DNA from: Hysterium pulicare CBS 123377
Taxonomy: Eukaryota; Ascomycota; Dothideomycetes; Hysteriales; Hysteriaceae
NCBI GenBank assembly: GCA_000467715.1
Contig: AJFK01000180.1
Span: forward strand, 124,001-188,000
Direction: 5' to 3'
Length of the DNA: 64,000 nt
Shown: positions 4,158 to 10,356 of the stretch, piece after piece
Layout: each line of letters opens with the position of its first letter
How positions within the stretch are numbered: the first letter of the stretch is position 1
Position numbers and translations under genes: made by a program
Notes under the pieces: generated by a model
The model's database searches: none
Told to the model about the DNA's origin: nothing
Seen by the model: only the letters and a program-made list of their open reading frames with translations

Positions 4158-5614
4158 CTAACCACTGCTGGTACTAGTCTGAGTCGGCAATCCTGGTGGT
4201 TGCCCGTGTCCAGAGGGATTCTGCCTCTTCTTTTCTTTCTTTGCCCAGCGCACTAAAAAATATTAGCAGATATAGGACCCAAGGATATGAAGAAACGCTT
4301 ACATCCACAAGCATTACATAAGGTCTTTGGCCCATTGGGGCCTTTCCTCCATTCGGGGGAATCTAAAGTGCCGCAATCCGTGCACACATACTCATCTGCG
4401 ATTTTCAGTTTCTTCTTCTTGTCCGAAGTGCTCCTGCCATCCTTGTCGAGTGATATCTGTATTCCTACGTCTCCCCTGATGAGATGTGGACTTGCGTCTC
4501 CAGTACTAATGCCTTGGGAACGCTCTCCATCACGGTATCGTAACCCAGTCAGCATCTCAATTGTTTCTAGATGAGTGGCTCCTTCATATCTGGCCATTTT
4601 GTCATTAATACTATCGGGCTTGCTAGCCGCTAACGCCTCGTCGAGATTTTGTCTTGTGAGCGCTGTATTCGACACTGCAGGTTTAGCTGGCGGAGGCATG
4701 CTATTATACATAGGATTGGACACTGGTTCGCTTTCTGTCCGCTGTGTCTCGGAAGTGGTGACCGAAGTCCGCCCCTCAGCTTTCTTCTGCCAGTGCCTGT
4801 CTTGCGCTTCCTGTTCCTCGGCCTCCTCCCTCTTTAGCTCCGCTATCCGTTTCATGAGTCTTTCATTTTCTATCTTGTGTTCGAGAAAGGTATCGAGAAG
4901 GGCAGCGTTTTTTGTGGGGTAGGGTCGTGACATCATGAAGAAGCCCCGACAGAATGCAGCGCCATTGTTTGGACCAAACGTGGCGGCTTCGGAAGAGAGA
5001 TGCGGATGACCGTGGGATTCGAAAATTGCCCAAGCCCCGTCGTCTTTGCGGAAGCGGTAGAAAAACCTGAGAGGATTGCCAGAAGCAATGGACTCATTGA
5101 ATTCCCGAACGAATATTCCGCTGTCATCCGGGTGTATGAAGTCTCCCACAAACCGTCCGATTAGCTGGCTAGGGTCGTATCCGGTAAGGTCTTTACACGA
5201 TGGTGACACGTAGAGAATCCTGCCATCTGGGGTTAAAATGTGCAATAGATCTCTGAGCTCTTCAAGCACGCGCTGCGACCAATTTCGCCGCTTGGTAAAC
5301 TCAGTTAATGTGCTCCCTCCAGTATTGATGATGGGTGCCCCAAATCCTGTGGGTAAAGGACCAGCACCTGCACCCGTCATCGTATTGTTTTGCATGCCAG
5401 CGAAGGCATCATTGGGATCCACTGCCCCGGCCGCCGGCTGCTGTAGCTGCTGTTGCGAAAAGGGTGTGCTAAAAGACTGGGCGGTAGCATTTTGGCTCTC
5501 GGAATCGATTTGCGACAGGTCAACGTCCATAGGCATCATGTCAACGTCGAGGCCCGCCATCAGGCCCGACTGATCAGGAGTGAAGTCAGCGATAGCTGGT
5601 GGTAGACCCGTCAT
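4158..5614 (-). CDS. wc-2: White Collar-2 type GATA transcription factor
   Basis: Two exons (5614-4303 and 4252-4158) joined across a 50-nt intron encode 468 residues. A Gln/Pro-rich N-terminus is followed by a PAS domain at about residues 115-235 ([18 protein letters not shown], then [19 protein letters not shown]) and a coiled segment near 240-285. The C-terminal GATA zinc finger spans about 411-436 with spacing Cys-X2-Cys-X18-Cys-X2-Cys, as in WC-2. The intron cuts the finger right after CNACG; splicing restores [11 protein letters not shown], the basic tail of this finger class, while the unspliced frame loses it. WC-2 heterodimerises through PAS with the blue-light receptor WC-1 to drive light-responsive and clock transcription in the nucleus. 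The start MTGLPPA at 5614 is chosen by family likeness; the frame stays open upstream to an ATG at 5962, so a longer N-terminus is possible. Confidence 0.95.
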
Positions 5615-6075
5615 CTTTGCCGTCGATATTGTGTCAGCAGTCGTCCGGGATCCTGGCATCAAGGTGCGCACATACGTCGGTTGGGAATGTCCCGACGCTC
5701 TGGAACATTGTGTGATGGCTGCGGCAGCCACAGTTCTTCCAACCTTAGCATGCACCTTTGAGGCGGCCGAAATATGCAGAGGATGAGGTGAAAGGCGAAG
5801 GTATTTGTTAGAGGAGGATGTTGCTGACGTGATATCACGAGACAGAGCGTGCGTGACGCAAACCCGAATGCCGGACGACTTTGGGTGAATTGATCTGCAG
5901 CGCCACAGCTGATCACGTGCTCGCGCGAAAGCCAAGTCGCGAATTAGGCCGCCACGCTCCACCTCATCTTCTCCATCGCACCTCCTGCTGGTAGACGACC
6001 ACTGGGGAAAGGCTCAAGAAAGAGAGCAGTAAAGAGTTCTGGTTACACTTGTTGGACGCAGCAAGTCGATTCACC
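5615..6075. promoter_or_regulatory. Shared divergent promoter of wc-2 and RAD50
   Basis: Only 461 bases separate the two divergent start codons, so the promoters must overlap. A CACGTG E-box-type palindrome lies at 5914-5919. The part next to wc-2 is also open in the wc-2 frame, so some of it may be leader or coding. No clear TATA box was seen for either gene. Use as a shared control region is inferred from geometry only. Confidence 0.5.
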
Positions 6076-9000
6076 ATGTAAGTGAGAACGCTTACGGTTG
6101 ATGCTATGGAATACCCTTGACTGACATCGTGTAGGTGTACGTGAACTTACTGTCAATCCTACGCTATAACTCCAAACACATTTGAAGAGTAATACTAATT
6201 GCATCTCAGCGAAAATCGACAAGCTGTCGATTTTAGGGTACGTTTTTCTTCCTCCTTAGTCTCATCTACCCCGAGACTGACCTCTAATAGTGTCCGCTCA
6301 TTCGACAACATCGTGAGCCAGACGATCCAATTCAACACACCCCTCACCCTCATTGTGGGCTACAACGGATCTGGAAAGACGGTATGTTATTTCCGCTCAA
6401 ACAGCCCGCCGGTTCTTAGTGCTGAAACAAAGTATAGACCATTATCGAATGCCTCAAATATGCTACTACTGGCGAGCTTCCCCCTAACAGCAAGACCCAA
6501 GGGGCTTTTATTCATGACCCGAAGGTACGTGGAATATGAGTACAGACATTTCGCGCCAGCCTTTACTAACTTGCGGTAGCTTTGCGGCGAGAAAGAAGTC
6601 TTGGCGCAGGTCAAACTTTCTTTCAAATCGACTTCTGGAGCTAGGATGGTGGCCACTAGAAGCTTGCAGCTTACGGTGAAGAAAACCACTAGAACGCAAA
6701 AGACTCTGGAAGGTCAATTATTGATGATCAAGAATGGCGAGCGCACGGCTATCTCTTCCCGAGTGGCCGAACTCGATCAAATATTACCACAGTATCTGGG
6801 TGTTTCTAAAGCGGTCCTAGAGTTTGTCATATTTTGCCATCAGGATGATAGTTTGTGGCCAATGAGCGAACCATCCGTCCTCAAGAAGAGGTTTGATGAA
6901 ATTTTCGAAGCTCTGAAGTACACTAAGGCTATAGAAAACATCAAAATTCTACGAAAGAAGCAGAACGAAGAGCTGGCCAAGTATAAGATTATTGAACAGC
7001 ATTCGAAGGAGGACAAGGACAAAGGAGACCGAGCGGAAAAGCGAATGACCGAGCTGCACGATGAGATTGAAGGACTTCGAGTTCAACACACCGAGCTCCA
7101 GGGCAAGATCAAAGATGCGAGGCTGAAATCACAAGACGCTTTCGGCCATGCTGCTAGATATGAGCAGATAGTAGCACAGCTCAGCGGAAAGCGAATCGAA
7201 CTGAAGGCAGTCAAGAAGAATGTTACGGAGTTGGAGCATAACTTAAGAGAGATGACCGACTCGGATGACGAGTTGCAATCTATCCTAGATCAATACGAAG
7301 AACGAGTGAACCAGTATCAAGAACAACGGGAAAGCATGCGACAGCATTATTCAGACTACGCAGAAGACCTCGAGCTCAACCGCAAGTCTTTGGGGATCAA
7401 GCAGAGCGAGATCGGTAAATTTGAGGCTCAGAGAGACCAACATGAGCGCCACTTGAAACATCGTGAGAGTCTAATAAAGGAGACTGCACGGCGTCATGGT
7501 ATTCGCGGATTCGATCTGGATATCACAGATGCTCACATTCGTGAGTTTATGGAGTTAGTCGGCAAGAAGTCGAAGGAGGCGAACAAAGGGCTTGAGAAAG
7601 CTCGCCAAGAGACGCAAGAGGATCTCAGAAAGGCCCAGGTCGCGCTCAATCAACTGAACGAGCGGAAGTCGGCATTGAATCAAAGCAGGGAAACGTCACG
7701 GTCACAAATTGCCACGAATGACAAGAAGTTGGCAGGCTTTCAGTTGGAGATGGACAAAATTGAAATTGACGAGGGCGGTGAAGCGATCCTCATAGACAGC
7801 AAAGAAGAAACGGAACGACGACTCAAAAAGGCCATCTCTGATTATCAAGAGGCGAAGTTGGACAGTAAGATTGGGGAGACCGAATCGCAATTGCGCGTCC
7901 TTGATGAAAAGAAGGAGAAGCTGGATGCTGAGTTGATTGAGGCCACAAGATCGGCTCGCGATTCCGCTCAAATTGAATATCTACAGAATCAACTCAAAGG
8001 CAAAAAGCATAGCCTGGACACCATGAAGAACGCGCATGGACCCCAATTGTCCAAGATATTAGGACCAGAATGGGAAATAGCTTCTCTTGACTCAGCGTAT
8101 CAGACTGTCGTTAGCCAGGAGGCTTCCAAGGTTAAGGAAGCCGAGTCGCAGAGGGAGAGCACCATTCGTACTCTGGAGAAAATCAACGATAGGCTCTTCG
8201 CCAATGAGAACGATCACAAGAAAAAGGTTGAAGAGCTGCACAGATGCGAAGAAACAGTGCTGAAAGCTCTCGGCGAGGAGGACGATATAGACAGCTTTGA
8301 GGAAGCTCTGCGGCAACTGGAACAAGACTACGAGTTGGAAACTTCTGATCAGTCTAAGTTCCAAGCAGTGTTGGATTACTTCCAGAAGTGCCTAAAGACA
8401 GCGCGGGAGCACAACGAGTGTCGACTATGCCGGAGACAATTAAAGGATGATAAGGCCCTGAACTTTTCGAAAACTTCTTTCATGACGAAGCTTGAAGCAC
8501 AAATCGAAAAAAGCTTGACAGACACCAAAGAAAGCAACCTAGAGGAATTGACATCCGAGCTGGAAGCGATGAGGCAAGCAAAACCGAGCTTTGACGCGCT
8601 GAATCGCCTCAAGGATAACGAGATTCCGACCCTTGAGTCCGAAGCTACTAAGCTGAAATCCGAGCGTCAGACTCTGAACGACAAGCTTTCCAGACAGGAT
8701 GTTGATGTTCGCGATCTGGAAGCAATCAAGCGAGAAGTCGAATTCCTGGCCAAGAACGTTCAGGCCATAGTCAAGTACTACACCGAGATTCGCGACGATG
8801 AGGCAAAGATCCGTGATTTGTTAGCGAAACAACAGGCAGCTGGTCGCTCACGTGGGCTCGAGAAGATTCAAGAAGATTTGAAGAGCGTCAACGAGGAGAG
8901 TCGAGCTGCAAAGGCTGCTTTCACTCGCCTTTCAACCGATAGAGAGAGGTCAAGAGGTCAAATCAATAGCTTAGAGCTGAAGATTCGAGACATCAACGCA

Positions 9001-10356
9001 GAGTTGAGCACTGCCCAGTCAAGACTGAAAGAAAAACGCGCTTTCGCTGTGCGAATCGAAGAACTCAAATCTCATAACGCCGAGCAGAGAAATGCCATGC
9101 GAAAAACTGACAAAGACATTCAAGATCTTGCGCCACAGATTGAGCAAGCGCAAATCAAATACGATGACATAAACCGCCGCGGTAACGAACGGATTCAATC
9201 GGCGCAAGATGAGAACGCAAAGATGTCTGACAGCGTCCGACAACTCCAATATGCTGATCAAGAAATCACTGCTTATGTTGACAAAGGGGGTCCTCACCAG
9301 CTTGCGCATGCACATGAAGAAATCAAAACCCTTGAGGACGAGGTTGCTCGTATTGAAAGCGAGATTCGACAGATTACTGTCCAGATCAAGAAGATTGAGG
9401 ACAACCTTCGGAATACCGACGATACAAAGCGTGCCATAAATGACAATCTCAGGTACCGACGAGCGAAACGGGATCTTGTGACACTTCAAACCGAAATTCA
9501 AGAACTAGAATCTCACAATGCCGAGGCGGATAAGGACCGTTACGAACGCGAGGGTAGCAAATGGCAACTAGAGCACAACAGTTTGACTGCACAGCAAGCC
9601 AGCCTCTTTGGCTCTCTAAGATCGAAGGATGATCAGCTGAAAGAAATGATATCGGAATGGGACACGGAGTATAAAGATGCTGCTTACAAGTACAGAGAAG
9701 CCCATATCAAGGTCGAGACTACTAAAGCCGCTGTGGAAGACCTAGGCCGTTATGGAGGTGCATTGGATAAGGCAATCATGAAGTACCACACGTTGAAGAT
9801 GGAAGAGATCAATCGCATTATTGAAGAGCTCTGGAAGAAGACTTACCAGGGCACTGATGTTGACTCCATCCTCATCCGCTCGGACAACGAGACTGCCAAG
9901 GGCAACAGATCCTACAACTACCGGGTGGTCATGGTCAAGCAAGACGCAGAGATGGACATGCGTGGACGTTGCAGCGCCGGCCAAAAAGTGCTTGCCAGTA
10001 TCATCATCCGCCTGGCGTTAGCAGAGTGCTTTGGAGTCAATTGCGGACTCATCGCCCTTGATGAGCCTACCACGAATCTTGATCAAAGCAACATTCGAGC
10101 CCTGGCGGAATCATTGTCAGAGATCATTAAAGTCCGCAGGAAGCAGGCTAACTTCCAGCTGATTGTCATCACTCACGATGAGGAATTCCTAAGATACATG
10201 CAATGTTCGGAGTTCTGTGACACGTATTATCGCGTGTCGCGTAGTGACAGGCAAAAGTCAATCATTGAGAGGCAATCGATTCATGATGTGAGTAGTTGGC
10301 AGATACTCTCTGATTGAGCAGCACATGTATACTAACAGCGTTCGTAGGTCACTTGA
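6076..10356 (+). CDS. RAD50: RAD50, ATPase of the Mre11-Rad50-Nbs1 double-strand break repair complex
   Basis: Exons 6076-6077, 6135-6136, 6210-6237, 6291-6381, 6438-6524, 6580-10287 and 10348-10356 join in phase to 1308 residues, normal for RAD50. Features in order: N-terminus [17 protein letters not shown]; Walker A GYNGSGKT at about 34-41; long heptad coiled coil; zinc hook Cys-X2-Cys (CRLC) at 684-687; second coiled coil; ABC signature region CSAGQK near 1201; Walker B LIALDEP near 1227-1233. The protein tethers and senses DNA ends in the nucleus with Mre11 for repair, telomere upkeep and checkpoint signalling. The start is odd: ATG is split as AT|G, and the only join I found that gives the family N-terminus uses a 2-nt exon (6135-6136) between two introns with good signals (GTAAGT...CTGAC...TAG and GTACGT...CTAAT...CAG). 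The last exon adds only Val-Thr-stop. Confidence 0.96.

Follow-up and report, generated by a model that had tools for sequence, protein, structure and literature searches.

Does any single exon of the RAD50 gene of Hysterium pulicare CBS 123377 contain the start codon? In the window analysed here (64,000 nt of contig AJFK01000180.1, forward strand), the only ATG between position 5868, where the preceding ATG lies, and the first intron was found at 6076–6078 (5500–6300 scanned). This ATG sits within a splice donor, CCAT/GTAAGT (slashes mark splice boundaries), as an earlier note on the sequence had observed. That note also proposed that the codon is split by an internal exon of 2 nt. We consider it likely that the RAD50 start codon is completed through this exon, GT, and that no single genomic exon holds its AUG. 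This is the best reading of the sequence, supported by the N-terminus of the protein, by a splice path that is the only one to yield it, by the splice signals and by an estimate of chance rescue. From the sequence we also infer actual splicing through the exon, its constitutive use and its origin.

The RAD50 gene and its predicted product

All coding parts of RAD50 lie on the forward strand. The coding part of exon 1 is the AT of the start codon (6076–6077, preceded by TTCACC), and it is followed by a predicted intron 1 of 57 nt (6078–6134), the predicted exon GT (6135–6136), a predicted intron 2 of 73 nt (6137–6209) and an exon of 28 nt (6210–6237) recognized by alignment to RAD50 chains. The 28-nt exon, which lies directly 5' of a GTACGT donor, encodes KIDKLSIL together with the last two bases of a Ser codon and the first two bases of a Gly codon. 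The remaining coding region (6291–10356; exons 6291–6381, 6438–6524, 6580–10287 and 10348–10356) rests on the spliced model and on TIGR00606. The spliced model comprises 1308 aa and gave a full-length family match to TIGR00606 rad50 (E 1.2e-173, 579.8 bits, cut-off 453.75), with residues 2–1305 aligned to positions 1–1304 of the 1311 in the profile. Exon by exon, the N-terminal region had one matching place in the 37.2-Mb genome.

When the 2-nt exon was included, residue 1 of the model corresponded to chain residue 1 in five of five distinct RAD50 chain sequences (5da9, 5dac, 7zr1, 9bi4 and 9q9h; E up to 1e-30). We take 5da9, 5dac and 7zr1 to be from Chaetomium thermophilum and 9bi4 from Saccharomyces cerevisiae. 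Two weaker matching chains (3qf7 and 3tho; 2 of 7 in a wider listing) aligned from query residue 10 and were uninformative on the start. No fungal RAD50 relatives were present among the matches listed from the genome-contig and viral-contig collections; one scan of the genome contigs gave none, the alignment query at least three bacterial loci from them (26–30 % identity), and the queries on viral contigs returned none in one scan and two in another. A 79.5-kb IMG/VR contig encodes, at L015:4001–4192, a stretch whose best segment shows 42 % identity to RAD50 residues 1–54.

Two further features of the gene were recorded. At its 3' end, a possible 9-nt terminal coding exon (GTCACTTGA, Val-Thr-stop) follows an intron of 60 nt that carries GTGAGT and CTAAC (10288–10356). 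With this exon the alignment stops two residues before the end of chain 7zr1_C and the last residues are poorly matched; there may be an alternative, unspliced C-terminal end. At its 5' end, RAD50 lies in divergent orientation to a PAS/GATA gene that resembles white-collar 2, with about 460 bases between the probable start codons (5614–6076), and a promoter common to the two genes is possible.

A split start codon and the available splice paths

Left unspliced, the ATG at 6076 reads ATG TAA. The exon at 6210 opens in mid-codon (N/CG AAA ATC) and requires ATGT before its CG; since the chains align residue 1 to residue 1, the missing part is the Met and the first base of the Ser codon. Direct joining of AT to 6210 (AT/CG) gives no ATG and hence no Met, just as the earlier note had said. 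With the predicted exon in place, its G finishes ATG and its T starts the TCG codon, so that AT + GT + CG reads AUG-UCG and the protein opens with the family N-terminus MSKI. The translation and the residue-1 alignment to the five chains thus bear out the N-terminus that the note had derived from this join, and its letters and coordinates were all correct (AG at 6133–6134, GT at 6135–6136, GTACGT at 6137–6142, AG at 6208–6209 and CG from 6210).

The count of splice paths admitted GT and GC as donors and AG as acceptor, with a minimum intron length of 30 nt. From the ATG at 6076 to 6210 there were 32 canonical paths, two of which were open with a Met and only one of which was open with the RAD50 N-terminus (AT, GT at 6135–6136, CG). 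The second open path, which uses a donor at 6141, was rejected as it leaves the RAD50 frame. Acceptors at 6187 and 6189 were likewise rejected, an AUG being absent, and so was a zero-nucleotide exon at 6135, where AG/GTGTAC offers a possible donor, as this gives AT/CG and no AUG.

A distant or unrecognized first exon might instead provide the start. Direct joins to 6210 were open from 114 ATG–donor combinations when ATGs from 4501 onwards were considered, involving 70 distinct donors, three of which (5012, 5134 and 5464) fit GTRNG. None of the 70 fits GTRNGT, however, 45 are GC donors, the introns needed would be 434–1688 nt long and 104 of the 114 combinations use an ATG inside the opposite-strand reading frame of the white-collar 2-like gene. 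Two-intron routes through the donor at 6078 (ATGs 4801–6070) were open in 1161 cases, including 72 with GTRNG, and none of the 1161 combined GTRNG with a branch word and a YAG acceptor. We regard a start of this kind as very unlikely.

Skipping of the tiny exon (removal of 6078–6209), with RAD50 starting at an upstream non-AUG codon, was also considered. The joined T6077 + CG would still encode Ser-Lys-Ile in the right frame, which upstream of the join (5948–6077) is free of stops for 43 codons and contains ACG at 5954 and 6056 and no ATG. Against this, the resulting message would lack an AUG from 5990 on, residues would be added ahead of a start that equals residue 1 in five RAD50 chains, and a well-placed ATG following CACC would be disregarded, which leaves this an extremely improbable origin of the RAD50 start.

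Splice signals and intron lengths

Both predicted introns carry canonical signals, and the lengths, branch words and acceptor words that had been attributed to them were confirmed. Intron 1 (GTAAGT...TTGACTGAC...GTGTAG) contains overlapping TTGAC and CTGAC words ahead of GTGTAG, whilst intron 2 (GTACGT...TACTAAT...CTCAG) contains TACTAAT, with 11 bases after the branch A. The donor hexamer GTACGT of intron 2 is shared with the RAD50 introns at 6238 and 6525. In a candidate donor set that is contaminated and small (n=79), so that percentiles are weak, donor 1 scored above 84 % of the set, donor 2 (GGT/GTACGT, with a weak exon side) above 35 % and the zero-nucleotide donor TAG/GTGTAC above 32 %.

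Intron candidates were collected by signal from 264 kb with 90-nt flanks, a set in which real and chance introns are mixed and which is usable for the length peak only. The candidates peaked at 50–69 nt (22 in the 50s bin, 17 in the 60s bin and five in the 70s bin), so that 57 nt falls within the peak and 73 nt slightly above it; from 90 nt up, each bin held 0–7. The other four RAD50 introns measure 53, 56, 55 and 60 nt. A single 132-nt intron is unusual, though conceivable, by length.

These lengths bear on the main rival explanation, an assembly or sequencing error that shortened GTGT by one GT. In that case the genome would really read ATGT/GTAAGT..., and one ordinary intron of about 130 nt would extend to 6209; the error predicts ATGTGTAAGT at 6076, where the assembled start-codon region reads ATGTAAGT. 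Slippage is common in short dinucleotide repeats, the genome is in 596 contigs and the 130–139 nt candidate bin holds seven members. On the other hand, a length of about 130 nt does not fit the 53–60 nt spanned by the four remaining introns of RAD50, and the internal TTGACTGAC...TAG/GT/GTACGT would become a coincidence, the frequency of which was estimated as follows.

Chance expectation and genome-wide background

In the null model, 6 bases at the start and 20 at the end were kept and the interior was replaced by random genomic slices, the RAD50 locus having been removed, in 400,000 trials. Rescue was counted for internal exons no longer than 40 nt, and the strict test called for CTRAY and GTRNGT. 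The real RAD50 sequence satisfies the strict test, which was passed by chance in five of the 400,000 trials, none of them with a 2-nt exon. Loosening the branch word raised the number of rescues to 326 (79 with a 2-nt exon), and admitting any GTR donor as well raised it to 5593 (1107 with a 2-nt exon). If the assembly were in error, the internal signals would thus be a coincidence on the scale of 5/400,000 (strict) to 326/400,000 (loose branch word), and we judge such an error to be unlikely.

The pattern CTRAY-N3-12-YAG-GT-GTRNGT occurred 11 times in the 37.2-Mb genome, compared with 16 occurrences of the reversed pattern, and one of the 11 sites is exactly at the position that RAD50 requires. 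Genome-wide, any two bases between YAG and GTRNGT were found at 85 sites (180 in the reversed control) and three bases at 88 sites (148 in the reversed control). Since such sites are rare and do not outnumber the reversed pattern in any of these comparisons, there is no general excess of exons of this kind in the genome, and the case rests on the position that RAD50 needs and on restoration of the start.

Predicted consequences of mis-splicing

Mis-spliced RNAs were modelled on a transcript assumed to start at 5990 and to have lost its third intron. Unspliced RNA, or RNA that retains intron 1, would read AUG-UAA. Retention of intron 2 would give AUG UGU ACG UGA, a three-codon ORF (M-C-T-stop), and the exon-skipped RNA would contain no AUG from 5990. 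With these modelled products, translation of RAD50 should need both splices. The structure could conceivably act as an all-or-none splicing gate on this DNA-repair gene, a role that we put forward as rather doubtful.

Should the predicted structure be correct, it would provide a fungal 2-nt exon and a start codon that is formed only once two introns have been removed. An automatic gene prediction could overlook RAD50, a protein at the core of repair, or shorten it: in the model, the Met at residue 1 is the last before the Walker A motif, so that a later start would drop this motif. The RAD50 site would also offer a clean test of the minimum spacing from an acceptor to the next donor under intron definition.

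Proposed mechanism and origin

We propose that a constitutive 2-nt exon, GT, lies between introns of 57 and 73 nt, both of them short and of the ordinary U2 type. Each intron would be recognized on its own (intron definition) and the two would be removed consecutively, in either order. A stepwise course is suggested by the spacing, as two bases between AG and GT would hardly permit both sites to be bound simultaneously. In Pezizomycotina, short introns are described as paired across the intron and closely packed U2 introns as removed consecutively, in the relevant passages of PMC6616335. Removal of intron 1 first would generate ATGT/GTACGT, via an intermediate in which AT is joined to GTGTACGT and intron 2 is retained. 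Removal of intron 2 first would generate TAG/GTCG, which would also be workable, via an intermediate in which TAGGT is joined to CG and intron 1 is retained. The intron-1-first order that had been suggested is therefore possible but not required, because a donor, a branch word and an acceptor are all present and complete in each of the two introns.

The same mature message would result from one non-canonical AA...AG intron (6080–6209), without any 2-nt exon. The identity of the two messages is what speaks for such an intron; AA–AG is, however, an abnormal U2 boundary, and two canonical introns with branch words exist at this place. We hold this alternative to be scarcely probable. It does affect how the 2-nt exon can be proved: mature cDNA alone would be unable to do so, being letter-for-letter the product of the AA–AG intron, and the cDNA or RNA-seq junction check recommended in the earlier note would thus not be decisive. 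Read aligners may report an AA–AG junction at 6080–6209 in place of the 2-nt exon.

Two origins of the predicted exon appear plausible. Intron 1 may have been gained within an ancestral ATGT/GT...AG/CG structure, or one GT may have been lost from an ancestral ATGTGTAAGT, followed by adoption of the internal TAG/GT/GTACGT. Tandem duplication of intron 2 as the source of intron 1 was rejected as not significant: a first test was suggestive (8 of 1000 core shuffles, and 31 of 1000 with the donor kept), and in the anchored test 34 and 44 of 750 genomic GTRNGT sites scored at least as high as observed, one of the 34 being the overlapping donor at 6131 in the RAD50 locus itself. An origin from an introner or repeat was also rejected, as the 132-nt stretch matched only itself at E up to 10.

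Comparison with known systems

By sequence and path enumeration, the predicted exon has the properties of an ultra-small micro-exon: it is needed for the correct protein and has complete introns on both sides. Among open-licence publications, as represented by titles and the beginnings of abstracts, there was no 2-nt exon in RAD50 and no start codon assembled via a micro-exon.

Two arrangements with closely spaced splice sites resemble the RAD50 locus in part. Like the stwintrons of Pezizomycotina as described in passages of PMC6616335, it has two closely associated short U2 introns, with consecutive splicing and intron definition. Unlike in stwintrons, the donors, branch words and acceptors of RAD50 are all contiguous, no internal intron interrupts a splice element of an external one, and two exonic bases, the G and the T, are required and kept in the message; micro-exon wording was absent from the passages searched in the stwintron papers. 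The abutting acceptor and donor at 6135 (AG/GTGTAC) recall zero-nucleotide recursive splicing in Drosophila, in which no exonic base is kept from one splicing step to the next; at RAD50 zero-nucleotide use would give no AUG.

The RAD50 exon would not be the first of its size, nor the smallest. PMC12940212 cites exons of 2–5 bp (reference 16 there, Volfovsky 2003) from other organisms, namely Arabidopsis, Drosophila and humans, and this range covers the 2 bp predicted for RAD50. Exons of 1 nt have been shown experimentally in Arabidopsis APC11 and plant VPS55, according to passages of PMC4674806 and PMC8831610; there, too, an ultra-small exon is flanked by two ordinary introns, but the genes are from plants and the codons are internal. 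The earlier note was right to call exons of this size rare, but even smaller ones have been published, one of them in a fungal gene family (PMC12940212). As exons of 2 nt and smaller have already been documented, the surprise is moderate.

The closest parallel is that fungal family, CYP621A of Fusarium, in which 18 transcript reads, obtained in two species, and conservation among Fusarium orthologues support a 1-nt exon (PMC12940212). An apparent intron of 139 nt, over twice the median, concealed two short introns, and almost all deposited gene models were wrong at the 1-nt exon; the origin proposed for it is that a base near the boundary was lost and a cryptic exon then came into use (PMC12940212). 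A base-loss origin of this type would also fit a GTGT-to-GT loss in RAD50. In both cases a filamentous ascomycete needs an ultra-small exon to restore a conserved motif, and in RAD50, too, an apparent long intron would conceal two short ones. The RAD50 exon differs in being predicted from sequence, in having 2 nt rather than 1 and in lying in the start codon rather than inside the ORF, and this location is its distinctive feature.
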